Positions 6,643-37,191 of a stretch of 64,000 nt of DNA are shown piece by piece. Location: NCBI GenBank assembly GCA_022826245.1, contig JAJDVG010000010.1:1-64000 (forward strand). Direction: 5' to 3'. The position numbers and the translations under genes were made by a program. This DNA is from Gammaproteobacteria bacterium (GTDB lineage: Bacteria > Pseudomonadota > Gammaproteobacteria > Steroidobacterales > Rariloculaceae). The notes beneath the pieces are model-generated. The model had not been told where the DNA came from, searched no databases, and saw nothing but the letters and a program-made list of their open reading frames with translations. The number at the start of each line of letters is the position of its first letter. Position 1 is the stretch's first letter.

Positions 6643-7620
6643 ATGACCACGCTCTCGGCCGCGCTCGCCATGGCCAACGATGCAACACCCGACGTTAGCG
6701 ACGACCACGCACAGATCCTCGAAGGGCTGCGTTCCAGGCAGAAATGGATCTCGCCCAAATACTTCTACGACGAGCGCGGCTCGGAACTGTTCGACGAAAT
6801 CTGCCGACTGCCCGAGTACTACCCGACGAGGACGGAGCTTGCGCTCATGGACCGGCATCTCGACGAGATCGCGCGCCTCGTCGGACCGCGCGCCTCGGTC
6901 ATCGAATTCGGAGCGGGTTCCAACGTCAAGGTCCGCAAGCTGCTCGACAGTCTCGATCGACCCGCGGCCTACGTGCCGGTCGAAATCTCGGCGGACTACC
7001 TCGTCAGGCAGGCCGAGGAACTCGCGCGCGACTACCCGGACGTTCACGTGCAGCCCGTGTTCGCGGATTTCACCCGGCCGTTCGAGCTGCCTGACCATCC
7101 CGTCACCCCGGAGCGGAATCTCGTTTTCTTCCCCGGGTCGACCATCGGCAATTTCACCCGGCCTCAGGCTGCGGATCTCCTCGAGGTCATGAAGCTCGAG
7201 GCGGGCGCCGAGGGAGCGCTCCTGATCGGCGTCGATCTGCGCAAGGATCCGGCGGTTCTGCACGCTGCCTACAACGACAGCCAGGGCGTAACGGCGGCAT
7301 TCAATCTCAACGTGCTTGAACGGTTCAATCGCGAGCTTGGCGCCAACTTCGACCTCGATAACTTTCGGCACGAGGCGATCTACGACCGGGGCGAGGGGCG
7401 CATCGAAATGCGGCTGGTCAGCAAGCGACCGCAATTGGTCGCCATCGCGGGGACACGCATTCCGTTCGCCGCGAACGAGCACATCATCACCGAGTATTCG
7501 CACAAATACTCGGTCGAGGAGTTTGTCGCGCTTGCCGAACGTGCCGGGTTCAACGCCGGCAGAACATGGATCGATGACGTTTCGCTGTTCAGCATCCACT
7601 ACATGACGGTCGCCGACTAG
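6643..7620 (+). CDS. egtD: L-histidine N-alpha-methyltransferase EgtD
   Basis: A 325-residue SAM-dependent methyltransferase that trimethylates histidine to hercynine, the first step of ergothioneine synthesis. Family hallmarks are present: QKWISPKYFYDERGSELFDE near the N-terminus, LPEYYPTRTE, the SAM-binding VIEFGAGSNVKVRKLL, FFPGSTIGNF, and IGVDLRKDP. The C-terminal region EFVALAERAGFNAGRTWIDD is also conserved. The frame is open further upstream through egtB, but the ATG used here is preceded by AAGGA at a 7-base spacing and gives the normal family length. The pair egtB-egtD should give hercynine and its sulfoxide; the final C-S lyase must come from elsewhere. Confidence 0.94.
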   Translation: MTTLSAALAMANDATPDVSDDHAQILEGLRSRQKWISPKYFYDERGSELFDEICRLPEYYPTRTELALMDRHLDEIARLVGPRASVIEFGAGSNVKVRKLLDSLDRPAAYVPVEISADYLVRQAEELARDYPDVHVQPVFADFTRPFELPDHPVTPERNLVFFPGSTIGNFTRPQAADLLEVMKLEAGAEGALLIGVDLRKDPAVLHAAYNDSQGVTAAFNLNVLERFNRELGANFDLDNFRHEAIYDRGEGRIEMRLVSKRPQLVAIAGTRIPFAANEHIITEYSHKYSVEEFVALAERAGFNAGRTWIDDVSLFSIHYMTVAD

Positions 7621-7782
7621 CCCTTGCCGCAAGAGACGATAGCGAACTGTCGTCAGGCCGGATCGCACAGAGGGCGCCGATTACGAGCGGTCAGCCTTGC
7701 CCGCTGCGTGCACGGGCGCATGTGTGGCCGCCCACGCCGCGACATGCGCGGCGCGACGCATTGCGATTATCATTTCGCGGCC

Positions 7783-9732
7783 ATGAACGCGCCCGTGCTC
7801 TACCCCGCTCCCGCCGACCGCGCCCGCACGGCCTGGGCGGATCAGGATGAATACGAGTCGCTTTACGCGGCTTCGATCGCCGACACGGAAGGCTTCTGGC
7901 GCGAGCAGGCGGCGCAGCTCGACTGGATTGCACCGTTCACGCAGGTCAGGGACGTTTCTTTCGACAGGGACGATCTGCACGTGAGCTGGTTCGCCGACGG
8001 CAAGCTCAATGTCGCGGCCAACTGCGTCGATCGCCACCTCGAAGCACGCGGCGAGCGCACGGCGATCATCTGGGAGAGCGACGACGGCGCGACGACTCTG
8101 CACATCAGCTACCGGGAGCTGCACGAGCGGGTCTGCCGGCTCGCGAACGCGCTTCGGACGCTCGGTGCAGTGAAGGGCGACCGGATCACGATCTACATGC
8201 CGATGGTGCCGGAGACCGCCGTCGCGATGCTCGCCTGCGCGCGAATCGGCGCCATCCACTCGGTCGTCTTCGGCGGTTTCTCCCCCGAAGCGCTCAGGAA
8301 CCGCATCGAAGACTGCGATTCGAATTTCATCATCACGGCCGACGAGGGCCTGCGCGGCGGCAGGACGATCCCGCTCAAGGCCAACGTCGACGCGGCGCTC
8401 GAGAAGCTCTCGGGCACGACGGTAAGCGCGGTCGTCGTCGTGAGGCGCACCGGCGGCGAAATTGGCTGGAACGACGGCCGCGACCACTGGTATCACGAGA
8501 TTACGGCCTCGCAACCCGCTGACTCGCCGGTCGAGGTCATGGGCGCGGAGGATCCCCTGTTCATTCTTTATACGTCCGGCTCGACGGGCAAACCCAAGGG
8601 CGTACTGCACACGAGCGGCGGTTACCTGCTCTACGCCTCGATGACCCACCGCTACGTGTTCGATTACCACGACGGCGCCATCTACTGGTGCGCCGCGGAT
8701 GTCGGCTGGGTCACGGGGCACAGCTACATCGTCTACGGACCGCTCGCCAATGGCGCGACCACGCTCATGTTCGAGGGTCTGCCGAATCACCCCGACGCGA
8801 GCCGGATCTGGCAGATCGTCGACAAGCACCAAGTGGAAATCCTCTACACGGCGCCGACGGCGATCCGCGCGCTCATGCGCGAAGGGGACGAGCCGGTCAG
8901 GGCGTGCTCGCGCAAGAGCCTGAAGACGCTCGGCACGGTTGGCGAGCCGATCAATCCAGAGGCCTGGGAGTGGTACCACCGCGTCGTGGGCGAGAGGCGC
9001 TGCCCGATCGTCGACACCTGGTGGCAAACCGAAACGGGCGGCATCCTGATCACGCCGCTGCCCGGCGCGACGGCGCTCAAGCCCGGCTCCGCAACGAAAC
9101 CCTTCTTCGGCATCCGGCCGGCGCTAGTCGATAACGACGGCAACATCCTCGATGGCGAGGCGGCCGGGAATCTCGTCATCCTCGATAGCTGGCCCGGCCA
9201 GATGCGCACCGTCTACGGCGACCACGAGCGTTTCGCCGAGACCTACTTCAGCCGCTTCGCCGGCATGTACTTCACCGGCGACGGCGCGCGGCGCGATGCG
9301 GACGGCGACTACTGGATCACGGGCCGCGTCGACGACGTGATCAACGTGTCGGGGCACCGCATGGGCACGGCCGAAGTCGAGAGCGCACTGGTTGCGCACC
9401 CCAAGGTCGCCGAAGCCGCGGTGGTCGGCGTTCCGCACGAGATCAAGGGCCAGGGCATCTACGCCTACGTCACCCTGATCGCCGGTGAGGAACCGACCGA
9501 GGAACTGCGCCTGGAACTACGCAACCGGGTGCGCAAGGAGATCGGCCCCATCGCCAGCCCGGATTACATCCAGTGGGCTCCGGGACTACCGAAAACTCGC
9601 TCCGGCAAGATCATGCGGCGCATTCTGCGCAAGGTCGCGGCGGACGATTTCGACGATCTCGGCGACACCTCGACGCTCGCGGATCCCGCCGTCGTTGACG
9701 ACCTCATCGAACACCGGATGAATCGGGCCTGA
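7783..9732 (+). CDS. acs: Acetyl-coenzyme A synthetase
   Basis: A 649-residue AMP-forming acyl-CoA synthetase that makes acetyl-CoA from acetate, ATP and CoA in the cytoplasm. The adenylation loop [15 protein letters not shown], the acetate-pocket region [30 protein letters not shown], the hinge region [15 protein letters not shown] and the C-terminal [12 protein letters not shown] with the regulatory acetylatable lysine are all present. The length matches Escherichia coli Acs closely. The frame extends about 160 bases upstream, but the ATG chosen fits the family N-terminus. The gene stands alone between egtD and yggX. Acetylation of the C-terminal lysine, as in other bacteria, is likely but cannot be shown from sequence. 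Confidence 0.95.
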
Positions 9733-9802
9733 AGCGGCGGCGGCGCTTGCCGAAGACCTATCCCGCGGCCAGTGTAACGGACCGATCGGCTGCGCGCCCG
9801 GA

Positions 9803-10072
9803 CTATTCCTCCGGCTGGAAATCCGGCGGACGCTCCGAACCCTCGCCGAAGAAGTACTTCTCCATCTCCTGCTCGAGGAACTGCCTGGCTCTGGGTTCGA
9901 AAGGCGTCAGGCGATACTCGTTGATGAGCATCGTCTGGTGGCCGAGCCAGCGCTGCCACGCGACCCGCGACACGCTGTCGAAAACCCGTTGCCCGAGCTC
10001 GCCCGGGTAGGGCGGCCGGTCCAGTCCCTCGGACTCGACCCCGAGCAACACGCATTGGACGGTCCTGCTCAT
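9803..10072 (-). CDS. yggX: Iron-sulphur protection protein YggX
   Basis: An 89-residue cytoplasmic protein of the Fe(2+)-trafficking YggX family, which in gammaproteobacteria protects iron-sulphur clusters from oxidative damage. The whole protein matches: [59 protein letters not shown], and [16 protein letters not shown]. The conserved early Cys is present. A purine-rich ribosome binding stretch (GGGAGAGAGAGGG) lies upstream. In many relatives yggX follows mutY, an iron-sulphur enzyme gene; here mutY is on the same strand about 5 kb away with other genes between. Confidence 0.95.
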
Positions 10073-10338
10073 GCGGTTTCCCTCTCTCTCCCGAACTACG
10101 GCCGCGCAGGCCCTTGCGCGCCCGGAGCGGACCCGCCCAGGAACAGGCGCGTGCCATCGGCGAGGATGAAGTCGCGGCCCACCATGATGTTTCGAAAGTA
10201 ATCGCCACGGAGCGACTATGTCAATCGAGAGGCTATGCCAGGCTCCGCGCGATTGAACCTACTATGGGAATGCGAACTTTCCGGACAGAACGTTGAGGTT
10301 TCCGGGGCCCCGTTTGTCGGGACCGCTCCGGTGCGCAG

Positions 10339-10869
10339 TCAGCCCCAGGCAGTCGAACTGCCTTTCTCATCGAACGCGCCCTTGATGCGGCCGATCAGTT
10401 CGCGCTGCAGTTCCGTGGCGCCGTCGACTGCCGCGACTTCCTCGACGAGGGACAGCGTCGATGCGATCTGGCTGTCGGCGAAGCGTTCCCGGCTCCTGGC
10501 GATCACGTCCGGAACCTGGTCCCTGAAGATCCGCCCGTCGCCCACGAGGTAGGCGCTTGACGCGAGCAGCTCTTCGGCCGCGCGCCGATCGAGCGCGAAC
10601 GTGCGCTCGAACGCGCCAAGCACTGTGCGCTTCTGCTCGGAACTCATGTCGCCACCCGCCTTGGCAATCCCGACTGCGAGCACGGCCGCGACTTCCATCG
10701 GATCATCGAGGCCGAACAGCGGATTGGCTTCGAACTTGCGCCGCCATGACCGTCTGCGCTTCAGTGCGAAGGGATTGAGGCCGCCAAGGTCGATCCCGGC
10801 GTCGGCGAGTCGGCTGAGCAGCACGAGCGCCGTAACGATGACTCCGAGCAGCCCGAGCAGATACGGCAT
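10339..10869 (-). CDS. TerB-like protein with N-terminal membrane helix
   Basis: A 176-residue protein with one N-terminal membrane helix (LLGLLGVIVTALVLLSRLA), a basic linker (LKRRRSWRRK), then an all-helical domain of about 120 residues. The helical part carries TerB-like features: MEVAAVLAVGIAKAGGDMSSEQKRTVLGAF and EEVAAVDGATELQRELIGRI, two acidic helix-loop segments related by pseudo-symmetry, as in TerB/DjlA-type metal-sensing modules. No J-domain is present. The role is unknown; membrane-tethered TerB domains are thought to act in envelope or metal stress. The gene stands alone, downstream of a 530-base intergenic region. Confidence 0.65.
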   Translation of the reverse strand: MPYLLGLLGVIVTALVLLSRLADAGIDLGGLNPFALKRRRSWRRKFEANPLFGLDDPMEVAAVLAVGIAKAGGDMSSEQKRTVLGAFERTFALDRRAAEELLASSAYLVGDGRIFRDQVPDVIARSRERFADSQIASTLSLVEEVAAVDGATELQRELIGRIKGAFDEKGSSTAWG

Positions 10870-11399
10870 GCCGTCAGTCCCGCGATCGCTTCGCCGGGTG
10901 CGGGATCAACGCACGGACGCGATCAACCACGTATCACCATTCGCATTGGTGGTCAGCGGGTCGACCTCGACCGGCAAGATCAGGGCTGCTGTCACGAACA
11001 CCGCTTGCATCGCTTTCGCCTGCCTGTTACTGCCTACAGGTCCGATTATGGATGATCCTGGCGGCCGTCTGCTCAATCGATCAGACGACAGGATACATGC
11101 TGGCTTATCCCTGACGGGCATTATCCGGCGCTGGGGCGCCGATACATACGAGTACCATTGCCTTCGGCGTCGCGAGCAAGCAAAGTATCGCAGACTAAAA
11201 TTCGAGCGCACTCACTTTTCCTAGTAGTATAGGCGACACTGGCAGCGTGACACTGCCGCCGCACCAAGGTAACTCGACAAATGTGTTCGCTTTGCCCGAA
11301 TAGGTCGATCAAAGCCACATAGCCCTTTTTCCTGCCAGACAATGTGCCCACGTGGAGGGTATTGGCAGCGTTTCGATCTACGAGGAGACAATCTTACAT
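10870..11399. other. 530-base intergenic region of lower GC content
   Basis: This gap lies between the divergently transcribed TerB-like and GntR genes. It is visibly poorer in G and C than its neighbours. I find no convincing gene. A minus-strand frame near 10906-11020 ends TNANGDTWLIASVR and could be a gene remnant, but I cannot match it. The right half holds the palindrome and repeated half-site listed separately. Confidence 0.5.
11241..11257. promoter_or_regulatory. 17 bp palindrome, candidate operator of the GntR regulator
   Basis: The sequence GGCAGCGTGACACTGCC is a near-perfect inverted repeat with one mismatched pair around a central G. It lies about 140 bases before the GntR start codon. 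The left half, GGCAGCGT, recurs exactly at 11364-11371. The size and placement suit autoregulation by an FCD-type GntR protein, but the operator of this regulator is unknown. Confidence 0.4.
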
Positions 11400-12083
11400 A
11401 TGAACAATATTCGGCCCATCGAACGTGAAGCAATGCCGCTGCGCCGCCAGGTGACTGCCCGGCTGCGCGAGGCGATCCTGAACGGACATCTGAAGCCGGG
11501 CCAGAAACTCGTGGAGCGGGAACTCTGTGCATCCCTCGATGTCAGCCGCCCGCTATTGCGCGAGGCGCTGCCGCAACTGCAGGCTGAAGGTCTGATCACC
11601 TGGGTTGCGCACCGGGGACCGTCCGTGGCCCTGGTCGATAGCGACGAGGTCAGGGAGATCTTCCAGGTCAGGATGGCGCTCGAGTCCCTGGCCGCACGCG
11701 AATTCGCCCGCAATGCCTCCGACGCGCAGGTCGCGGAGCTCAGGCGACAGGTCGCCTCGCAGAAGCCGGTCAACAGGTCCGGGAGCCTGCAGGATGTGTT
11801 GGCTCTGAAGGTGGGATTTTATTCTGTGCTGTTCGAGGGCTGCGGCAACAGGATGATCGGCCAGATCGTAAACCAGCTCATCAATCGAATCGTCCTGTTC
11901 GAAGAGCTGTCGCTTCCCGCGCCGGAACGCCTGCAGGAAGTTATCGAGGAACTCGAGGAGATCGTGTCGGCGATCGAGGCCCGCGATGCGAAACTGGCCG
12001 GCAAGATGTGTGAAAACCACGTCCGCAATGCCGACCTGCAGATCCGCAGCCGACGATACGAGGCAGCTGCCGCGAGTATTTGA
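11400..12083 (+). CDS. GntR-family transcriptional regulator, FCD (FadR) subfamily
   Basis: About 227 residues from an ATG preceded by GAGGAGA at an 11-base spacing. The N-terminal 70 residues form the winged helix: RQVTARLREAILNGHLKPGQKL, ERELCASLDVSRPLLREALPQLQAEGLI. The rest is the helical FCD effector domain (EIFQVRMALESLAAREFA, IVSAIEARDAKLAGKMCENHV), where an acidic residue and histidine commonly bind metal and a small carboxylate ligand. It converges with the M19 dipeptidase gene, so it may control the amidohydrolase/dipeptidase pair; that link is inferred from position only. One oddity is LPQLQAEGLI, where most relatives have LxxLExEGLI. Confidence 0.88.
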   Translation: MNNIRPIEREAMPLRRQVTARLREAILNGHLKPGQKLVERELCASLDVSRPLLREALPQLQAEGLITWVAHRGPSVALVDSDEVREIFQVRMALESLAAREFARNASDAQVAELRRQVASQKPVNRSGSLQDVLALKVGFYSVLFEGCGNRMIGQIVNQLINRIVLFEELSLPAPERLQEVIEELEEIVSAIEARDAKLAGKMCENHVRNADLQIRSRRYEAAAASI

Positions 12084-12116
12084 GACGGCCCTCTGCCTGA
12101 AGCGGGGCGTTCGGGT

Positions 12117-13373
12117 TCAGTCGTCGCGCGGCTGCGATTCGGCGGCGATTCGCTCGGCCTCCCGCCAGACCCTGAGCAGGTTGCCGCCCCAGAGTTTGGC
12201 GATAGCTTCCTCGCTATAGCCTCGGCGTACGAGTTCGAGCGTCACGTTGGCCGTGTCGGCGGCATCGAACCAGCCGACGATGCCGCCGCCGCCGTCGAAG
12301 TCCGAACTCAAGCCCACGTGATCGATGCCGATCAGATCGACTGCGTAGTCCACGTGGTCGATCAGGTTGCCGACGTCAGCGTAGCCGATCGCTCCGAGAC
12401 GAGCCTCCAGTAGGTCCCGCTGCTGCTCGCTCAGTGAGAACCAGTCCCCGAAGCCCTCGATGCCGAACTCCGCGAGAGCCGCGGCAGTCGCTTCACGCTC
12501 CGCGGCCGTCGCTTCCTTGAGGTAGGGCGCGAACGCGGTCGTCTGCATGACACCGCCGTTGTCGCGCAGGGCCAGCAGCGTCTCGTCGTCGAGGTTGCGC
12601 ACATGGTCCGTCAGTCCGCGCGCGTTCGAGTGCGACGCGATCACGGGCGCACGCGACAGGCGGATGGCATCGAGCGCCGCGTCCCTGGAAATGTGCGAGA
12701 TATCGATCATGATGCCGAGCCGGTTCATTTCCTCGATGACCTGCTCGCCGAATTCGCTGATGCCGCCGTGTTCGGCCGGGCCGTCGCCGAGATCGGCGCG
12801 CGGCTGCGCCGAGTCGGCGATGTCGTTGTGACCGTTGTGGGCCAGCGTGACATACCGCGCGCCGAGTTCGTGATAGCGCTCGAGCAGCGAGAGATCCCGG
12901 CCGATCACGTAACCGTTCTCGATGCCGATGGCCGCGACGAGCTTTCCCGACGCGTTGATGCGCTCGATGTCGTCGGCGCTGTAGGCGATTTCGATCAGAT
13001 CCGGGTAGAGCTCCTCGGCCATGCGGCGTATCGCGTCGAATTTGATGATCGCGCCGGCTTGAGCCTGCTCATGATTCTCCGGCGTCCGCTGGGTCTGCCC
13101 GAAGTAGACGATGAAAAACGCTGCATCGAGACCGCCGGCGAGCATCTTCTGCAGGTTGACCTGCCGGGGCGCGTCGAGCGGATCGACCGCATCGGTCGCG
13201 AAATCGAACGGGATGTCGTCATGACTGTCGATCGTAAGCGTGGCTTCGTGGATCGCGAGCGCGCGCTCGTCGGCCTGTTCGGCGCCGCCGCCCTGGGCGC
13301 GTGAATCGGCGCAACCGCCGAGCGTGAGTGCTGCCGTCAGGATGGTCATCTGCAACGGATACGCGTTCGTCAT
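12117..13373 (-). CDS. Membrane dipeptidase (peptidase M19), probable lipoprotein
   Basis: A 418-residue metallodipeptidase of family M19 (renal dipeptidase-like). The N-terminus is a lipoprotein signal with lipobox LGGC at about residues 18-21. Metal-site features are present: the first pair in TIDSHDDIPFD, the bridging glutamate region GIENGYVIGRD, then HNGHND, the HISRD segment, VIASHSNARGLTDHVRN and GIDHVGLSSDFDGGG. Family members cleave dipeptides, often with a D-residue at the C-terminal position. Its ATG overlaps the stop of the amidohydrolase gene by four bases (ATGA), so the two are translationally coupled. The pair probably processes small amide- or peptide-linked compounds in the envelope. 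Confidence 0.92.
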   Translation of the reverse strand: MTNAYPLQMTILTAALTLGGCADSRAQGGGAEQADERALAIHEATLTIDSHDDIPFDFATDAVDPLDAPRQVNLQKMLAGGLDAAFFIVYFGQTQRTPENHEQAQAGAIIKFDAIRRMAEELYPDLIEIAYSADDIERINASGKLVAAIGIENGYVIGRDLSLLERYHELGARYVTLAHNGHNDIADSAQPRADLGDGPAEHGGISEFGEQVIEEMNRLGIMIDISHISRDAALDAIRLSRAPVIASHSNARGLTDHVRNLDDETLLALRDNGGVMQTTAFAPYLKEATAAEREATAAALAEFGIEGFGDWFSLSEQQRDLLEARLGAIGYADVGNLIDHVDYAVDLIGIDHVGLSSDFDGGGGIVGWFDAADTANVTLELVRRGYSEEAIAKLWGGNLLRVWREAERIAAESQPRDD

Positions 13374-14545
13374 CCGACCACCCTCCCGCCGAGCACGGTC
13401 GCAGACGGAAACAGCCGCTCGCGACCGATACGCGTGCCCTCGTAGTTGTCGACGAACTCGAACTCGCCTTCGCGCAGCTCCATGATGGCGATGTCGGCCG
13501 GAGCGCCGACATTGAGCGTGCCGCGGTCCTCGAAGATGCCGAAGCAGCGCGCCGCGTTCGTCGTCGCACAGGCGATCACGTCGGCGAGCGGCATGCCGAC
13601 CAACAGGAACCTCGACATGCAGTTCGGGAAGTCGACCACACCGGAGGTGCTCGACATGATGTTCCAGTCCGTCGAGATGGTATCGGGCCAGAAACCCTGC
13701 TCGACCGAACGCTCGATCATCTCCCAGGTGAAATGCCCGAACCGCCCGTTGCCGAAATCGAAAATCACGCCGCGGCGGCGCGCGGCAGCGACCTCGGGGA
13801 AGAGTTGCCCGTCCTCGTCGAGGATCGCGTGAGGCGGCGGAGCATACATGTGCGTGACGATGTCGCCGCGCTTGAGAAGCGGCAGAATGGCGCGCATGGG
13901 CGAATAATTCTGGCCGACGTGCGCCATGACCGGGAGCCCGAAAGGCCGCACGGCTTCCTGCGCGCGCCTGAGCGCTTCGAGATCGTTGGGACCCGTGACT
14001 TCCGCCGAGAGCCTGATCTTGACGCCCGCAACGATGTCGCGGTGTCGCGCGATGGCGCCCTGGGCGAGCGCCACGTTGGCCGCGTCGAGGTCGTTAAGCT
14101 CGCCGTCGGATACCACTCCGGTACGCGCGATGTGGACGAGCGCGCAGCCGGTCTGCGGCGCAGCGCGGATGACCTCGGCGATCGCGTCGATGTTGTCGGC
14201 GCCGGCGGAGCCCGCGTCGACGAAGCCCGTGACGCCGTCCCGCAGCGCAAGCGCCGGCCCTTCGGCGTCGCGTGCGGCATGGGTGTGAATGTCGATCAGT
14301 CCCGGTGCGACGATCCTGCCGCTCGCATCGAGCACCTCGTCGGCATCGTCGCCGATATCGACTGCGACGGCCGCAATTCGTCCGCCGGCGATACCGACAT
14401 CTCGCACGGCGTCGAGCCCGACGGACGGATCGATGACGCGGCCCCCCCGGATAATGAGATCGTAGGCAGCCGCCCGCGCGGCGGGCAGGCGCGCGGCGAG
14501 CGCAAGCCCCATGGCCGTGTTCAGAAATGTACGCCGGGTTGTCAT
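13370..14545 (-). CDS. Amidohydrolase/deacetylase-family metallohydrolase with Tat-type signal
   Basis: A 391-residue member of the amidohydrolase superfamily, of the dihydroorotase/D-aminoacylase-like branch. The frame is open much further upstream, but the ATG chosen is preceded by GGAGGT and starts MTTRRTFLNTAMG, a twin-arginine-like signal sequence. Features: DLIIRGGRVIDP, IVAPGLIDIHTHAARD (metal-binding HTH), GVKIRLSAEV (the carboxylated-lysine position), VMAHVG, DIVTHMYAPP, ISTDWN and NVGAPADIAIM. The family has deacetylases and enzymes of unknown substrate, so the substrate is not assigned. The stop overlaps the M19 dipeptidase start, suggesting joint action. Export by Tat would place it in the periplasm with the lipoprotein dipeptidase. 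Confidence 0.88.
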   Translation of the reverse strand: MTTRRTFLNTAMGLALAARLPAARAAAYDLIIRGGRVIDPSVGLDAVRDVGIAGGRIAAVAVDIGDDADEVLDASGRIVAPGLIDIHTHAARDAEGPALALRDGVTGFVDAGSAGADNIDAIAEVIRAAPQTGCALVHIARTGVVSDGELNDLDAANVALAQGAIARHRDIVAGVKIRLSAEVTGPNDLEALRRAQEAVRPFGLPVMAHVGQNYSPMRAILPLLKRGDIVTHMYAPPPHAILDEDGQLFPEVAAARRRGVIFDFGNGRFGHFTWEMIERSVEQGFWPDTISTDWNIMSSTSGVVDFPNCMSRFLLVGMPLADVIACATTNAARCFGIFEDRGTLNVGAPADIAIMELREGEFEFVDNYEGTRIGRERLFPSATVLGGRVVG

Positions 14546-14718
14546 GTCATGACCTCCGGTGGCTGACGAGCGTTGTCGTATCGTGGTGCGCGCAGGGCTT
14601 GCATCGTCATCCGCTAGCGGCGGCCGTGTCAAGAACGGCTCCACGGCTCCGAACCCCGGCAGATTTCCCGGATAAGACTTCCACGATGCGAGACGGGACA
14701 CCAGGGTCCGCGGACGAT

Positions 14719-15774
14719 TCATTCGTCGAGCCTGTCGGCGAGGCTGCGAAGCAACGCGGCAATGGGAGCGGCGACACCGACAGTCGGCGGAGTTGCAGGA
14801 TCCTGCCAGAGCCGGTCCCGACCGTCCCCGACGATGTTCGGGCCGCCCGCCAGCGAGACCTCGAACGGCGCGAGTTCGAGGTCGAAATGCGTGAACGAGT
14901 GCATGACCGGATCGCACTTCCGAACCGATCGAACGCGGGCGCCGAGCTTACGATCGCACCATTGCCCGGGTTCCTCGCCGTCACGCAATTCCGGAAAGCT
15001 GTAGAGCCCGCCCCAGATGCCCTGTTCCGGTCGTCGTTCGAGCAACACATGGCCTTCCGGATCGATCACGATGAGGATAGTGGATACTCGCTGCTTCCGG
15101 TTTCGCTTCGGCCGCGCTGCGGGTAGGCGATCCTCGATCCCCGCTTGCCGCGCAGCGCAGCCCCGAGCGACCGGACACTCGGTGCAGAGCGGCCGACGCC
15201 GCGTGCAGACTGTTGCGCCGAGATCCATGATCGCCTGCGTGTAGGCCGCAACCCTGTCGGGCGGCGTGTGGTGCTCGGCGTACTCCCAGAGCGCCCGTTC
15301 GACCGCCGACTCGCCGGGCCAGCCCTCCATGGCGTGGTAGCGTGCGAGAACGCGCTTGACGTTGCCATCCAGGATTGCGCACCGACGGCCGTGCGCCTGC
15401 GCCAGTATCGCACCGGCTGTCGAGCGACCGATGCCGGGCAGTGAGACCAGCCCTTCGAAGGTGTCAGGCAGGCGCCCTTCGCATCGTTCGACAACGATGC
15501 GTGCGCTTCGATGCAGGTTCCGGCCGCGTGCGTAGTAACCCAGGCCCGCCCACAGGCCGAGCACGTCGTCGAGTGGCGCCTCAGCCAGGGCCTCCAGCGT
15601 CGGAAAGCGCCGCATGAAGCGCTCGTAGTACGGCGCCACGGTGGTCACCTGCGTCTGTTGCAGCATGACCTCGGCGACCCAGATGCCGTACGGCGTCGGG
15701 TCGAGCTGCCAGGGCAGGTCGTGACGGCCGTGGATCGCGTGCCAGTCGAGCAGTTTGCGCGCGAACGAGTCCAC
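14719..15774 (-). CDS. mutY: A/G-specific adenine DNA glycosylase MutY
   Basis: A 351-residue base-excision repair enzyme that removes adenine opposite 8-oxoguanine. It has the helix-hairpin-helix LPGIGRSTAGAIL, the catalytic glutamate in AEVMLQQTQV (Glu35), the catalytic aspartate in LDGNVKRVLARY (Asp136), and the four cysteines of the iron-sulphur cluster at 190, 197, 200 and 206. A C-terminal NUDIX-like domain (HVLLERRPEQGIWGGLYSFPE) senses 8-oxoguanine. The start is GTG. It lies just downstream of tRNA-Gly on the same strand. The window also has mutM, the partner enzyme that removes 8-oxoguanine itself. Confidence 0.96.
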   Translation of the reverse strand: MDSFARKLLDWHAIHGRHDLPWQLDPTPYGIWVAEVMLQQTQVTTVAPYYERFMRRFPTLEALAEAPLDDVLGLWAGLGYYARGRNLHRSARIVVERCEGRLPDTFEGLVSLPGIGRSTAGAILAQAHGRRCAILDGNVKRVLARYHAMEGWPGESAVERALWEYAEHHTPPDRVAAYTQAIMDLGATVCTRRRPLCTECPVARGCAARQAGIEDRLPAARPKRNRKQRVSTILIVIDPEGHVLLERRPEQGIWGGLYSFPELRDGEEPGQWCDRKLGARVRSVRKCDPVMHSFTHFDLELAPFEVSLAGGPNIVGDGRDRLWQDPATPPTVGVAAPIAALLRSLADRLDE

Positions 15775-30709: not shown

Positions 30710-32485
30710 CTAATCCCCGAGCGCCACACCCTCCCGGCGCGGGTCCGCGCCGCCCGACAGGACCCGCCCGTCGTCCGTGTACTCGATCGCGATGCCGTGC
30801 AGTCCGCTGTTCAGCGTTCTCGACACGACGCTGTGGCCGAGTGCCCGGAGCTGCCCGGCATGGTCGAGAATCGCGGTGTCCTGCTCGAGTTCGATGGAGC
30901 GGTCCTGCGCCAGGAAGTGCGGCGCCGCAACGGCGTCCTGGATATTGAGCTCCCAATCGAGCACGCCAACGATGGCCTGCGCGACGTAGTTGATGATCCG
31001 CGTCCCGCCGGGCGAGCCGACGAGCAGCCGTAGCCGATCGTCCGCGTCGAAGACGAGAGTCGGCGACATGCTGCTGAGCGGCCGCTTGCCGGGCTCGGGC
31101 CGGTTCGCGACGGGCAACCCGTCGACCTCGGGCACGAAGGAGAAGTCGGTGAGCTGATTGTTCAGGATGAAGCCGCCGACCATGAGCTGGCTGCCGAAAG
31201 CGCCCTGCACTGTCGTCGTCATCGAGACGGCATCGCCCCAACGGTCGACGATCGAGAAGTGGCTCGTCGACATGACGTCGGTCGGCGCGCCGGGCGCGAA
31301 GTTCCACGCCAGATCGGGCCGGGGTGCGCCGGGCGACACCTGCCGCAGCGCTCTCCCGGGATCGATCAGCGCCGCGCGGCTCTGCAGGTACTCGCGGTTC
31401 ATCAGTGCGGCAACGGGCACGTCGACGAAATCCGGATCCGCCAGGTACAGATTGCGGTCGGCGAACGCGAGCCGGCTCGCCTCGGCGACCAGGTGAATCG
31501 ACGTCACGGGGTCCGCGCCCGGGGCCGGGAGGTCGAACGCTTCGAGCATCCCGAGAATCTGCTGAACGGCGATACCGCCGGAGGACGGCAGGCGCGGCCC
31601 GCACACCCGCCATTGTCGGTACGGCGAGCACAGCGGTGCGGTCGCCTGGGTCTCGTAGCCTGCGAGATCCTCGCGTGTCATACGGCCCGGTCGAATCGTA
31701 TCGTTCGTGACCGCTGCGACGATCCGGTCGGCGAGTTCGCCCGTATACATCGCATCGGCGCCCTGCGCGGCCAGCGTGCGCAGCGTCTCGGCATACTCGG
31801 TGTTGACGAGGCGGTATCCGGTTTCGCGGGGCTCGCCGTCCTCGTCGTAGAAATACGCCCGGAACTGCTCGTCCCTGGCGACCCGCCGGAACCGGTCGAG
31901 CAGGAAATACAGCCGTGGCGAGACCTCGAAGCCGCGCTCGGCCAGCTCGATCGCAGGTTCGAAGAGCTCGGGCCACGGCAACCTGCCGTGCTCCCGATGC
32001 GCGCGCTCGAGCATGCGCATGGCGCCCGGCACTCCCACGGCCTGACCCCCGAACGCCGCGTCCAGGAATGACAATTCTCGGCCGTTGGCGTCGAGGAACA
32101 TGCCGGGTGTCGCCGCCGCCGGCGCCGTCTCGCGGCCCGCGTAGGCGACGATCCGGGCGGGCTCCCCGGCTGGGGCGGAGGACCCCCTCGCCGAAACCGG
32201 CCGATCGCCGGGCACGTCGTACACGAGCATGAACGCGCCGCCGCCGATACCCGACGACTGCGGTTCCACGAGCGACAGCACGAGCTGCACGGCGATGGCT
32301 GCATCGACGGCACTGCCCCCGGCGCGCAGGATCGCGATCCCGGCTTCGGATGCGTGGGGATTCGCTGCCACGACCATCTGTTCGGTCGCGCGTACGGGTT
32401 CGGCTGCGCCTGCCGCGGCGAGCCAGACACAGGTGGCCGCGAATGAACAGACGAGGAGCTTCGCCCGGTGAATCGAAACTGTCAT
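30710..32485 (-). CDS. ggt: Gamma-glutamyltransferase
   Basis: A 591-residue periplasmic N-terminal nucleophile hydrolase. The signal peptide is LLVCSFAATCVWLAAAGAAE. Family features: MVVAANPHASEAGIAILRAGGSAVDAAIA, QSSGIGGGAF, then the autoprocessing site around TSHFSIVDRWGDAVSMT, where the Thr becomes the catalytic nucleophile, and RPLSSMSPTL. It cleaves gamma-glutamyl bonds of glutathione and related compounds. The start uses an ATG after AGGGAAAG; the frame is open upstream. The gene is inserted between mutM and coaD, which are adjacent in Escherichia coli. Confidence 0.94.
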   Translation of the reverse strand: MTVSIHRAKLLVCSFAATCVWLAAAGAAEPVRATEQMVVAANPHASEAGIAILRAGGSAVDAAIAVQLVLSLVEPQSSGIGGGAFMLVYDVPGDRPVSARGSSAPAGEPARIVAYAGRETAPAAATPGMFLDANGRELSFLDAAFGGQAVGVPGAMRMLERAHREHGRLPWPELFEPAIELAERGFEVSPRLYFLLDRFRRVARDEQFRAYFYDEDGEPRETGYRLVNTEYAETLRTLAAQGADAMYTGELADRIVAAVTNDTIRPGRMTREDLAGYETQATAPLCSPYRQWRVCGPRLPSSGGIAVQQILGMLEAFDLPAPGADPVTSIHLVAEASRLAFADRNLYLADPDFVDVPVAALMNREYLQSRAALIDPGRALRQVSPGAPRPDLAWNFAPGAPTDVMSTSHFSIVDRWGDAVSMTTTVQGAFGSQLMVGGFILNNQLTDFSFVPEVDGLPVANRPEPGKRPLSSMSPTLVFDADDRLRLLVGSPGGTRIINYVAQAIVGVLDWELNIQDAVAAPHFLAQDRSIELEQDTAILDHAGQLRALGHSVVSRTLNSGLHGIAIEYTDDGRVLSGGADPRREGVALGD

Positions 32486-32510
32486 TGCTTTCCCTTGCTG
32501 TATGGCAGAT

Positions 32511-33023
<513 letters not shown>

Positions 33024-33108: not shown

Positions 33109-33675
33109 TCATGTGCCGGTGTTCGGGAGCCGCTGGGCAGAACCAGCGAGCCGGGCAAGACCGAAGCAGACGGCGCCGGCGCGGCCGGTTTTTTGCCAGC
33201 ACAGCGCCGCCGATTCGGGCAGCCCCTCGCTCGCGGCCCGTTCGAGGTACAGCAGCGCCTCGGGCGCCATGACCGATACGAGAGCGCCGATCTCGGCATC
33301 GACGCGAGTCGCGTAGGGCGGATCGACGAACACGACATCGAAAGGCGTTTCGACCGCTCGGCGCAGAAACGTATCGACATCCTCGCACAAGACGCGGCCG
33401 TTCCCTCCCAGTAGCCGGAGCTGCTCGCCGAGATGCCGGGCGAGCTTTCGGTCGCGCTCGACGAACCACACCTCATCTGCCCCGCGCGAAAGCGCCTCGA
33501 GTCCGAGCATCCCCGTGCCGGCGTAGAGGTCGAGGCAGCGCGTCCCTTCGATCCGCTCGCCGAGCCAGTTGAACAGCGTCTCCCGAACGCGATCGGCGGT
33601 CGGACGAACGGTCGTTCCGGCGGGGAAACGCAGTCGCCTGCCGCGCCAAGCGCCGGCGATGACGCGCAGGCGCAT
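33109..33675 (-). CDS. rsmD: 16S rRNA (guanine(966)-N2)-methyltransferase RsmD
   Basis: A 188-residue class I SAM methyltransferase modifying G966 of 16S rRNA. Features: MRLRVIAGAWRGRRLRFP, TVRPTADRVRETLFNWL, CLDLYAGTGMLGLEALSRGA (SAM site) and FDVVFVDPPY (catalytic NPPY-like motif as DPPY). The ATG overlaps the stop of the upstream unknown gene by one base (TGATG), so translation may be coupled to the polyglycine operon. In most gammaproteobacteria rsmD lies next to ftsY; here about 3.5 kb of accessory genes separates them. Confidence 0.94.
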   Translation of the reverse strand: MRLRVIAGAWRGRRLRFPAGTTVRPTADRVRETLFNWLGERIEGTRCLDLYAGTGMLGLEALSRGADEVWFVERDRKLARHLGEQLRLLGGNGRVLCEDVDTFLRRAVETPFDVVFVDPPYATRVDAEIGALVSVMAPEALLYLERAASEGLPESAALCWQKTGRAGAVCFGLARLAGSAQRLPNTGT

Positions 33676-34133
33676 CAATCCGTATACGCGACGATCGCCG
33701 GATGCATTGCGATCACACACTCCGCGATCAAATCGCCTATCAGCATGGCGTCATCGGTATCGCCCGGCGGCAGACCCGCAATGTCCGAATGCGATGGGTC
33801 GGCATCGTAATCTCCGGTTGCCTGAAGCGGGTCGTGGATGATTCGCAACGAGTCCAACTCCTCGGCAACCTGGCGAACGACCGTGCCGACGTTCATTTCC
33901 GCAAAGCGCCCGCTTGCCCGTAAACGAAGGCGGGACAAACGTCGAACCTCGCTCAACTGATGGTTCTTGCCGGGCTCGAAGGCATCGAGCCAATTGACGG
34001 ACAGTCCGGTCTCGTCCGGTCTGCCGGAGCGCAAACGAAAGTCCGAACCGTCAGCCGTTCCATCATCCCGAACCATGCTCGGCTTGACATAGCGGACAAT
34101 CTGGTCGCCTTCCGGCAGATCGTCGCCCTTCAT
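33675..34133 (-). CDS. Conserved protein of unknown function (152 aa), third gene of the polyglycine operon
   Basis: I do not recognise a named family, although the sequence looks like a conserved bacterial unknown. No signal peptide or membrane helix. The first half has VRYVKPSMVRDDGTADGSDF, then FRLRSGRPDETGLSVNWLDA; the second has RFAEMNVGTVVRQVAEELDS and ADPSHSDIAGLPPGD, then DDAMLIGDLIAECVIA. The regular mix of strands and helices suggests a single compact cytoplasmic domain. Its ATG overlaps the stop of the preceding gene by four bases (ATGA), and its stop overlaps the rsmD start. This tight packing implies that it works with its two upstream neighbours. No catalytic residues can be proposed with confidence. 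Confidence 0.75.
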   Translation of the reverse strand: MKGDDLPEGDQIVRYVKPSMVRDDGTADGSDFRLRSGRPDETGLSVNWLDAFEPGKNHQLSEVRRLSRLRLRASGRFAEMNVGTVVRQVAEELDSLRIIHDPLQATGDYDADPSHSDIAGLPPGDTDDAMLIGDLIAECVIAMHPAIVAYTD

Positions 34134-34837
34134 ACATAAACCAATGAATGTAGTTCGAACGCGCCGATCTGCTGCTCTATCCCTTCCAGGGTATCCCGCC
34201 CGGTTACCCTCGAAATTCGTGGCCCTTGCTCGCGCTGCTTGAAAATGACGTATTGCACCATTCTGCCGCCAAGAAACTGCAGGCCCAGATGCGTTCCGCG
34301 TTCATCCTTCCATATTGCTCTCAGATTGCCGTTATCCATGAGCACCAGGTTGCCGCGCCGCATATTTGGAGCGGACTCGATGAACTGCCTGAAATCGATT
34401 TCGGAGGCAAAATTCAGCGTGTAGCCATCGTGGCGCGCTTCTTCCTGCAGCAGCTTCATGCGCTCCAGATAGGAATCGTGTTTGGCGCGCCCATGCCGCG
34501 CCATGTCTTCCGAATCAGATGCCGGAGCCGCGGCGGAACGTCGAAGACTCGTCGTACCTATTACTGAGCTAGCTGAACCACGCAACGCGATTGCCTGGGA
34601 ATTGAGTTTCTCCAGGGAACGGGTTGTAGCTTCGCGTGTGTCATCATCCCGACTGGAAAAATTGAATCCGCCATGACGACGCGGATTCCAAACCATTTTC
34701 GGCGGATGACAGCCTTCGTCAATCTGAAGGGATCCATCCCCTCGAACGTCAGGTTCTTTCAAATCCACCGTCTCCATCGCCGCCGACAGACCGTCCAGCC
34801 CGCCAGCTTTTCCGGCTTCTGCATGCTCCAACAGCAC
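34130..34837 (-). CDS. Conserved protein of unknown function (235 aa), second gene of the polyglycine operon
   Basis: The GTG start overlaps the preceding TAG stop by one base (TAGTG) and has GGCGGAGA upstream. The N-terminal 100 residues are polar, low in conservation features and probably disordered. The C-terminal 130 residues look like a real domain: RAKHDSYLERMKLLQEEARH helix, LNFASEIDFRQFIES, then MRRGNLVLMDNGNLRAIW, THLGLQFLGGRMVQYVIFKQ and RDTLEGIEQQIGAFELHSLV. The beta-rich middle (GNLVLMDNGNLRAIWKDE) suggests a small mixed alpha/beta fold. I recall similar sequences only as unknown bacterial proteins. There is no signal peptide. It is probably co-translated with the polyglycine protein and the 152-residue protein. 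Confidence 0.72.
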   Translation of the reverse strand: MLLEHAEAGKAGGLDGLSAAMETVDLKEPDVRGDGSLQIDEGCHPPKMVWNPRRHGGFNFSSRDDDTREATTRSLEKLNSQAIALRGSASSVIGTTSLRRSAAAPASDSEDMARHGRAKHDSYLERMKLLQEEARHDGYTLNFASEIDFRQFIESAPNMRRGNLVLMDNGNLRAIWKDERGTHLGLQFLGGRMVQYVIFKQREQGPRISRVTGRDTLEGIEQQIGAFELHSLVYV

Positions 34838-35430
34838 TATTGCTCTCCGCCGACGGAAATCAACGGCACGAACAGCACGAAACCATGGGCGCCTGCAACA
34901 CCGGCATCGCCTGCCTCAAAGCCCTTGCCACCGTCTCCGCCACGGCCACTCCTGCCAATTCTGACCTCGAATTCGTCATCGATGGACAAATCTGCAATCT
35001 CGACAATCCGCGTTTCTCCGGGGAAGCCCTTGCCGCCTTGGCCACCGTCCGCCGTGAGGCGGCCATCGGCCGAAGGCGCCACTGCCCCGCGCCCGCCGTT
35101 GCCGCCGTCGCCGTAGTGGCATCCTTGCCCCGGTGACCCAGAGACAGGCTTCCCCTCGTGAAGACCACCACCGCCGCCGCCGCCGCCACCGCCGCCGCCC
35201 GCAGCTTGATAGGTTATGTCTCCATGTTTCACGCTGGTTGGCGCGCCGCCACCGCCGCCACCGCCGCCGCCCGCACCGTATACATTCAACTCCTCGAGAC
35301 AGAACGCGCCGCCGCCGCCGCCACCGCCGCCTGCCGCGCCGCGAATGATCAGCAAACCGCGTTGTTCGGACCACGGCCATGCGAAGACCCCGGATTCAAC
35401 GACGCGGCGCAATGCCTTGTTGTCCTGCAT
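34837..35430 (-). CDS. Polyglycine-rich protein (197 aa), first gene of a three-gene operon
   Basis: The ATG follows a strong GGAGGAAG site. After a short head (MQDNKALRRVVESGVFAWPW) and a strand LLIIRGAA, the protein has three pure glycine runs: 8 at residues 34-41, 9 at 54-62 and 12 at 78-89, each preceded by a short beta-like strand. The second half has looser glycine repeats (GDGGNGGRGA, DGGQGGKGFPGE, GRGGDGGKGFEAGDAG) and ends in a hydrophobic strand, HGFVLFVPLI. No signal peptide is visible. Polyglycine runs between strands recall polyglycine-II sandwich folds such as phage gp38 adhesins, but I cannot assign a family. It heads a set of overlapping genes that runs into rsmD. Confidence 0.75.
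   Translation of the reverse strand: MQDNKALRRVVESGVFAWPWSEQRGLLIIRGAAGGGGGGGGAFCLEELNVYGAGGGGGGGGGAPTSVKHGDITYQAAGGGGGGGGGGGGLHEGKPVSGSPGQGCHYGDGGNGGRGAVAPSADGRLTADGGQGGKGFPGETRIVEIADLSIDDEFEVRIGRSGRGGDGGKGFEAGDAGVAGAHGFVLFVPLISVGGEQ
35164..35331. repeat. Three imperfect GCC/ACC trinucleotide tracts encoding polyglycine
   Basis: On the plus strand, tracts at 35164-35199, 35245-35271 and 35308-35331 consist of CCG/CCA-type triplets. They encode the 12, 9 and 8 residue glycine runs on the minus strand. Such tracts can change length by slippage in steps of one codon. Confidence 0.9.
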
Positions 35431-35739
35431 CCGATACTTCCTCCGTTGCGCAATGCGAGTCGCGATCGAATGATTCGCAAAAATGCCGGGACGTCGCCGA
35501 CAAGCGTGGCACAGGGCATGCCTGCCTGTCGATCCGGAAACCGGGACGTTCTCGGCAATTTTGAGACATCAATGCGACCTTTCCAGTAGTTCGAATGCGC
35601 GCGCCGCCCGATTCCGAGGCCGCCGTGCAAACAGTTGCTGCCGGTAATTCTTGTGGACGCGACCAAATGTATCGCTCGGAATTGACATACGATGTTCTCG
35701 CGCGTCGTATGGAACCACGTTACCCGCGAGGAGGCTGCC
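35431..35739. promoter_or_regulatory. Divergent intergenic region with a TTGACA -35 box
   Basis: About 310 bases between the polyglycine gene (minus) and the 483-residue exported protein (plus). On the plus strand a perfect TTGACA (35682-35687) is followed 17 bases later by a weak TCGTAT (35705-35710); transcription would start about 10 bases before the ribosome binding site of the plus-strand gene. I see no clear promoter for the polyglycine operon. Confidence 0.45.
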
Positions 35740-37191
35740 ATGTTGAATGATAGAAGTCCGGCCGCCCTTGGCAAGAGCCCCACCGCGCCAAGCTGGTGGC
35801 CAAATTCGTCCGGTGATCCGGCGAATTGCCGGCGCAACGCGAACTCGCACCGGCGCCCGGCATTGGTCGCGAGCCTGGCTACCGCGGCATATCTCGCGGC
35901 AATGCCGACGAGCTTGTCCCAGACAAGCGTCGGCCGAGGCGCTCCGGATCCGCTTCGCGCGGACGACATCGTCGGTTCCGAAGGCAAGGGCTACCTCATC
36001 GGTCCCGGCGTTCCCGACGACAACATGCCGATCTACGCTGCGCGCGACGGCGCGACTCCGCCCGGCATCGAGCCGCTGCCGGTCGATATCTTCACGACCG
36101 ACGACTTCTACCTCGACGAGGCGCTCTGGTTCGATCCGCGCTATTACCGCTGCAACTCCGCGGTCGGTCTCGAACAGATCTGGGGCGCCTACGAAGTTCC
36201 CCTGATCGGTGACGACCCGCCCGCATCCGCGGCCTGGGGCTTCTGCGACCGCGACTACCCGCGCGAGGAGATCGTGAGCCCCTACGCGTTCACTACGGCG
36301 GGTGAGCACTACCGGGCGCTGCTCGACGAAGCGCGCGACCGTGGCGGCCCGACACGGTACACGCAGGCGACGCTGCCCGACTGGAATGGCCGGTACGCGC
36401 GCCAGCGCGAAAAGACCCAAAGCTGGATCTACGGCGCCGTGCTCCAGATACCGACATACCTGTCGCTGCTGACGCCCGAGTACCAGCGGCGCTTCGTTCA
36501 GCAGATGTATCACTATTCGGGCAACAACGCAGCGCAGTGGCCGGGCTCGTATTGCTGGCCCGAAGGCTACATGCGCCGAATCTCGCAATACGGCGGCGGC
36601 CGGTCGAACCTCGTGATGACGCCGGACCTTGTTCTCGACATTCGCAACGCCGCGAAAACCCTGGTCACGCAGATTCACATCGGCCGTGAATTCGACGAAT
36701 CCGGCGTCGTACCCAGGCTCGGCGCCGACGTGCCGCAGTGGCTCGGCGATACGATCGGGTTCTGGGACGGCGAAGCGCTGATCACCTGGACATCGAACAT
36801 CCAGGGCTGGATCTCGCACGGGCAACACGAGTTCAGCAACCGAATGCAGACGATCGAGGTCTACACGCCGCGCGAGAATTCGGACGCGGAGTTCATCGGC
36901 CTTCGGCACGAAATCATGATCTACGATGAGGAGGCGTTCCTCGAGCCCGTTCGCATCGTCCAGTACCTGGACAGGCAGACCGGCCTCAACGAAGGCGATC
37001 CGTTCCTGTATATGGAGTGCGTCCCGCAGATCTTCCCGGTCGAAGGCGTCGCGACGCCGATCGCGCCGGGCCAGACCTTCGAGTACACGCTTCCGGACAC
37101 GTTCGGCCGCCCCTGGGCGCAGATCTGGGAACGGTACCACGAGGAAGGCATGCAGCGCCCGGAAGAAGAGGACATATTCAGTTTCGAATGA
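35740..37191 (+). CDS. Large exported protein of unknown function (483 aa)
   Basis: I do not recognise a named family. The ATG follows CGAGGAGG at a five-base spacing. The N-terminus is basic, then [22 protein letters not shown], a probable signal peptide after a long n-region. The mature protein is rich in aromatic residues and Asp/Glu: [62 protein letters not shown] (a repeated beta motif common in exported unknowns), and a tail ending EEEDIFSFE. The DTIGFWDG...LITWT segment is reminiscent of large secreted unknowns found near TonB receptors and steroid- or terpene-degradation genes in environmental proteobacteria. It sits alone between the polyglycine operon and ftsY. Confidence 0.72.

Follow-up and report, generated by a model that had tools for sequence, protein, structure and literature searches.

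A mobile, modular three-gene cassette beside rsmD in a Rariloculaceae genome: a candidate conflict system with a polyglycine front gene

Three overlapping genes next to rsmD

We analyzed a 64,000-nucleotide stretch of contig JAJDVG010000010.1 (assembly GCA_022826245.1, family Rariloculaceae), referred to here as the window. Three genes on its minus strand, which we call A, B, and C, form a cassette that ends on rsmD. The features of the locus are as follows.

35692-37191, plus strand: divergent gene of 499 aa on the other side of the insertion point; outside the cassette
34837-35430, minus strand: gene A, polyglycine protein of 197 aa, ATG start; the exchangeable front gene
34130-34837, minus strand: gene B, 235 aa, GTG start; variable N-terminal part and conserved C-terminal domain
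34133-34483, minus strand: conserved C-terminal domain of B, from alignments; motif LxLxxxGNLxAxW...LxLxFLG...
33675-34133, minus strand: gene C, 152 aa, ATG start, conserved partner of B; motifs R..., AFxLR, LSVxW, NPAHxxI
33109-33675, minus strand: rsmD (16S rRNA methyltransferase; PF03602, 4e-46); downstream housekeeping neighbor, outside the cassette
33501-35900, no strand: high-identity tract with the whole cassette, 94-99% identical to same-genus G020 (locus L005)

The junctions, read from the sequence, are TAGTG between A and B, ATGA between B and C (adjacent and on the same strand), and TGATG between C and rsmD, which confirms the overlapping minus-strand arrangement described in the original prediction. 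The glycine runs that it reported in the first product are also exact: gene A encodes runs of 8, 9, and 12 glycines, flanked by short hydrophobic stretches, and glycine accounts for 64 of its 197 residues. As had likewise been noted, the sequence of A shows no signal peptide or other hydrophobic signal at its N-terminus. A profile of C has a single match in the whole window genome.

The three open reading frames are real genes, because the same-genus species G020 (L005) keeps all three intact and without indels, with proteins that are 95-97% identical (95% for A) and dN/dS values between the window and L005 of 0.22 for A, 0.28 for B, and 0.39 for C. The dN/dS values and the indel-free conservation argue against chance reading frames arising from GC-rich repeats.

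Searches of Pfam, PADLOC, and NCBIfam with the three window proteins gave nothing better than chance, in agreement with the earlier statement that the two unknowns belong to no nameable family. In particular, no toxin or antitoxin domain is recognizable in A, B, or C with Pfam or NCBIfam, the NCBIfam scan does not identify A as TIGR04255, the PDC-M32 models discussed below find nothing in B and C, and B has no PADLOC match at E<=10. A PHROGs scan of the window proteins stayed at noise level throughout; the polyglycine protein has no match to a glycine-rich tail-fiber family, with none in Pfam and a nonsignificant E of 6.3 for the tail-fiber family phrog_454. Sequence searches against solved structures returned no match. 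AlphaFold models, built from five-row alignments, were poor (mean pLDDT 45 for B and 39 for C), and because the alignments are shallow, structure prediction is limited and adds no evidence. The C-terminal domain of B is predicted, with low confidence, to be a beta-meander (local pLDDT ~50-72); a Foldseek search with this weak structure returned nothing below E 0.25 and was set aside as evidence.

The cassette is an accessory insert exchanged within the genus

Outside positions 33501-35900, identity to L005 falls to 74-91% and 86-88% in the flanks, with a drop to 84% toward ftsY and to 86-88% within rsmD. Synonymous divergence from L005 follows the same pattern: dS is 0.04-0.10 for A, B, and C, compared to 0.54 for ftsY, 0.48 for the divergent reading frame, and 0.21 for rsmD. 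A segment of approximately 2.4 kb with the whole cassette has thus been exchanged recently between two species of the genus. Farther along, dS is low again in coaD (0.086), so the exchange may not have been confined to a single tract. The base composition of the cassette is foreign, with GC3 of 0.57 in B and 0.69 in C against 0.79-0.88 in neighboring genes.

The neighbors of the cassette in the window are ftsY, rsmD, coaD, and ggt, and it does not lie within a type I restriction operon. In the sister species G034, the order of ftsY, the divergent gene, rsmD, coaD, and ggt is unchanged, but A-B-C is absent and another gene occupies the gap; ftsY and rsmD are adjacent in four other family genomes (L034, L035 with L042, L036, and L040). 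The proposed coupling of the trio to rsmD therefore reduces to a genus-local, lineage-specific insertion point, and because G034 and the family genomes carry rsmD without the cassette, the overlap follows locally from the position of the cassette. Only this TGATG overlap speaks for a translation-linked housekeeping operon with rsmD, which we consider hardly credible, given that such rsmD neighbors are missing from G034 and the other family genomes and that copies elsewhere adjoin glmM/ftsH, polA, mutM, or ahcY instead (genes named by reading). These neighborhoods refute such an operon, and a functional link to rsmD is not supported.

The 499-aa divergent gene, which lies between ftsY and rsmD within the genus, cassette-free G034 included, is missing from the ftsY-rsmD gap of the family's other genera. 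A gamma-glutamyltransferase-like gene follows coaD (window 30710-32545, minus strand) in an order kept in most family members examined. In G020, approximately 3 kb past rsmD-coaD, there is a DUF262/DUF1524-like (GmrSD-type) gene by reading (L005 10863-12677, minus strand), which is not seen at the corresponding place in the window.

A conserved B-C core with an exchanged A gene

Among 147 genomes of the order, a search with B found relatives in G020, G012, and G128 only, in addition to the window genome. The B-C overlap is retained in both G012 and G128, where C is 68% and 60% identical to the window C, respectively. The polyglycine gene is absent from both: in G012 the A position holds a TIGR04255 protein (3e-25), and in G128 B is fused to an unrelated domain. 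B and C are adjacent in L008, L009, L012, L014-L018, L020, L021, L027-L029, L061, L064, L065, and L067, a distribution spanning unrelated Proteobacteria, plasmids of Hymenobacter, and viral contigs. In almost every copy, the two genes either overlap or are separated by a few bases; overlaps are maximal values, as the first possible start codon was taken. Relatives come mostly from draft genomes, the viral contigs are predicted viral, and neighboring genes given without a Pfam, PADLOC, or NCBIfam figure were read by eye or from record annotation. Direct tblastn of the window B in plasmids and phages, like the first viral scans, found nothing, and the phage and plasmid copies were reached only via profiles built from relatives or with relatives as queries. 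Occurrence is sporadic (4/147, 3/369, 9/398, and 5/78 genomes, the first three counts including the window genome), and these frequencies are lower bounds because search sensitivity is limited.

The gene in the A position differs from copy to copy. The most common one is TIGR04255, a family described as 'sporadically distributed', which precedes B-C in L014, L016, L027, L028, and L029 (NCBIfam 9e-21 to 1e-35) and, by alignment, in L061, L064, L065, and L067; the window has the polyglycine gene there. To our knowledge, TIGR04255 has no known activity, and we found no mention of it in the literature searched. Three Hymenobacter plasmids have a protein of the DUF4209/C6orf70 HEPN family in this position (Pfam 4e-9), a family absent from the window, and all three copies keep the HEPN-type motif RNRIAH (RNxxAH). 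DUF4209 proteins are predicted HEPN RNases with catalytic activity and are found in operons related to restriction-modification (PMC3710099). In L011/L045, a ClpP-like SDH protease (1e-20) precedes B, and an AlbA_2/HATPase protein replaces C. A front domain is fused to B in L009, and the front genes of L012 and L017 belong to no known family. Even the closest B-C relatives, L008 and L009, carry front genes other than the polyglycine gene.

The conserved core is thus the B-C pair rather than the trio, and A is exchanged between copies. The original prediction of an undescribed multi-gene system stands insofar as B and C are conserved, overlapping, and travel together in unrelated genomes, plasmids, and viral contigs; it does not extend to the polyglycine gene, which had been taken as a constant member and is instead one of several front genes. 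The recurrence sought in unrelated genomes was accordingly found for B-C, with the A position swapped. B and C do persist where the glycine gene is absent, a pattern that had been expected of isolated housekeeping proteins, but the pair is not housekeeping. Separately, a C-like gene with an NPAHALL motif adjoins a glycosyltransferase gene in L062 (926-1420, minus strand).

Copies often lie beside antiviral genes

The B-C pair is often found beside antiviral genes, counted here as individual cases. In L045, B belongs to a type I restriction operon with the order hsdR-hsdM-hsdS-protease-B-AlbA_2 (Pfam). L043 contains an N6-methylase and an AAA_21 ATPase (Pfam), the latter with AriAB as its best PADLOC match. 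The BREX genes BrxA and BrxE, together with DUF262, are near B-C in L018, as is MmeI in L020. On viral contigs, the cassette adjoins a PDC-S20 KAP ATPase (L065, 5e-138), and it lies between phage structural genes in the order terminase-A-B-C-portal (L064); a Zot gene and a resolvase-like gene are nearby in L067. The window itself has no defense gene within approximately 10 kb of the cassette, and only housekeeping neighbors are in view there and in L044 and L046-L051.

The L045 segment at 7409-15284 (minus strand), which combines hsdRMS, the SDH protease, the B domain, and the AlbA_2/HATPase protein, is possibly a composite defense operon itself.

B and C resemble the candidate defense pair PDC-M32

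PDC-M32, a phage-defense candidate in PADLOC made up of M32A and M32B, is listed as a hypothetical defense system in Sinorhizobium prophages (PMC12429752), the only place where it is named in the literature searched. Its model PDC-M32A finds the B gene of the TIGR04255-B-C trio in L061 at 1.1e-6. In profile-profile comparisons, C matched a set of intermediates at 1.7e-8 and the intermediates matched M32B at 1.1e-4 (C against M32B without the intermediates, 0.011), while B matched intermediates at 3.6e-4 (0.0039 with a slightly different set) and the intermediates matched M32A at 3.6e-4; the direct comparison of the window B with PDC-M32A was weak (0.038). These figures are single pairwise comparisons, and two comparisons with a shared member were left out of the evidence. 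Further likenesses are that B-like and C-like genes are adjacent, that B can be aligned with M32A in the C-terminal part of the latter, that M32B and C have a common motif order (R..P / SxAF / LSV / PxHAxI), and that both B-C relatives and PDC-M32 are linked to type I restriction operons. PDC-M32 differs in that M32A has a 250-residue N-terminal part missing in the window B, and in that it is a two-gene pair without a separate A gene. Judging from these alignments, B and C are likely to be distant relatives of PDC-M32A and PDC-M32B.

The PDC-M32 pair bears on whether the cassette was originally an accessory part of restriction-modification, such as a modulator or anti-restriction partner, that has since spread beyond it. 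PDC-M32A and a C-like gene (M32B) lie directly between hsdM and hsdS in L053, L054, and L057 (hsdM being in view in L053 and L054 only; both M32A and M32B scored with PADLOC in L053), and B comes after hsdRMS in L045. Nevertheless, most complete A-B-C copies, that of the window included, have no nearby restriction genes, and the phage copies stand alone, which makes such an origin improbable.

The polyglycine protein has one relative outside the genus

Within the order, the full-length polyglycine protein turned up in just the window genome and G020, two species of one genus. Its only relative outside the genus is a 67-aa protein in G060 (L078 1417-1617) with the same N-terminus, one run of six glycines, and a similar C-terminus. 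The gene for this short protein overlaps, through TGATG, a following Xre/MbcA/ParS antitoxin gene (PF09722, 5.5e-10). The window differs from this module in having no such antitoxin, and B and C have no match to one. Since the short relative fronts an antitoxin gene, the polyglycine gene, too, would occupy a front position and pair with conflict modules of different kinds, and because this single extra-genus relative is placed in the same overlapping arrangement, we regard the polyglycine protein as a probable cytoplasmic modular partner.

A surface, binding, or structural role had been suggested for the protein. A system based on polyglycine sandwiches, whether surface, adhesin, antifreeze, or structural, could draw on the three glycine runs beside short hydrophobic stretches and on the very weak resemblance to phrog_454 (E 6.3). 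We judge it very improbable: nothing supports export, no signal peptide is visible, the closest B-C relatives have unrelated genes in place of the polyglycine gene, and the short relative, which precedes an antitoxin gene, has a single glycine run. The adhesin or antifreeze role consequently finds no support.

Two other features occur near the short polyglycine gene. After the antitoxin gene there is a short interrupted frame with a RES-like look and no Pfam match, the whole arrangement being at L078 523-1617 (minus strand), and nearby, in L079, a long open reading frame by eye resembles a type IIG restriction enzyme.

A probable mobile conflict cassette

The cassette is mobile and modular, as the exchanged tract and the swapped front genes demonstrate. 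We consider it somewhat probable (roughly 55%) that the window trio is one representative of a three-gene, mobile conflict cassette, whose nature is most likely anti-phage or toxin-antitoxin-like; the defense or addiction role, and which gene does what, are what we infer from gene content and neighborhoods. A, B, and C would be produced together via overlapping translation, and such co-translation may serve to form an A-B-C complex. A would most likely be the part that acts or recognizes the intruder, and B-C would most likely bind A and control it. A is cast as the effector because of the DUF4209 (HEPN) and protease versions only.

A plain toxin-antitoxin or other selfish stabilization module would explain many of the same observations. 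In that case, A (or A with B) would be toxic, C or B-C would neutralize it, and the cassette would persist by addiction with no dedicated antiviral role. The genes are small and overlapping, their spread is patchy, and they are carried on plasmids and phages; one A type has the HEPN RNase motif, VapC/RelE genes are near copies in L019, L043, and L074, and the polyglycine relative precedes an antitoxin gene. However, a simple toxin-antitoxin pair would not usually comprise three genes, have an A protein that frequently reaches >=250 aa, or show B fused to other domains, and the window A, B, and C match no toxin-antitoxin family. We therefore rate pure addiction as rather unlikely, and prefer the mobile conflict cassette.

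A broader version of the conflict cassette can be put forward tentatively: B-C may serve as the control pair, undescribed and widespread, of an immune platform built from modules, in which one slot can be filled by effectors or sensors that are unrelated to each other. This slot would take TIGR04255, the HEPN RNase, the ClpP-like protease, and the polyglycine protein. If so, the platform would unify the unexplained TIGR04255 family with candidate PDC-M32, and the polyglycine protein would be a new kind of partner. The analysis ties three unexplained items (TIGR04255, PDC-M32, and the polyglycine protein) into one mobile cassette with an exchangeable component, borne by phages and plasmids and present inside restriction operons. 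The exchangeable slot offers a direct handle on the function of the B-C pair. If the cassette is a defense system, its window form is missed by current defense annotation, because the window proteins have no PADLOC match.

A C gene also occurs with no visible B, beside VapC and DUF433 genes, on a symbiotic plasmid of Rhizobium gallicum (L019 5848-6375, plus strand).
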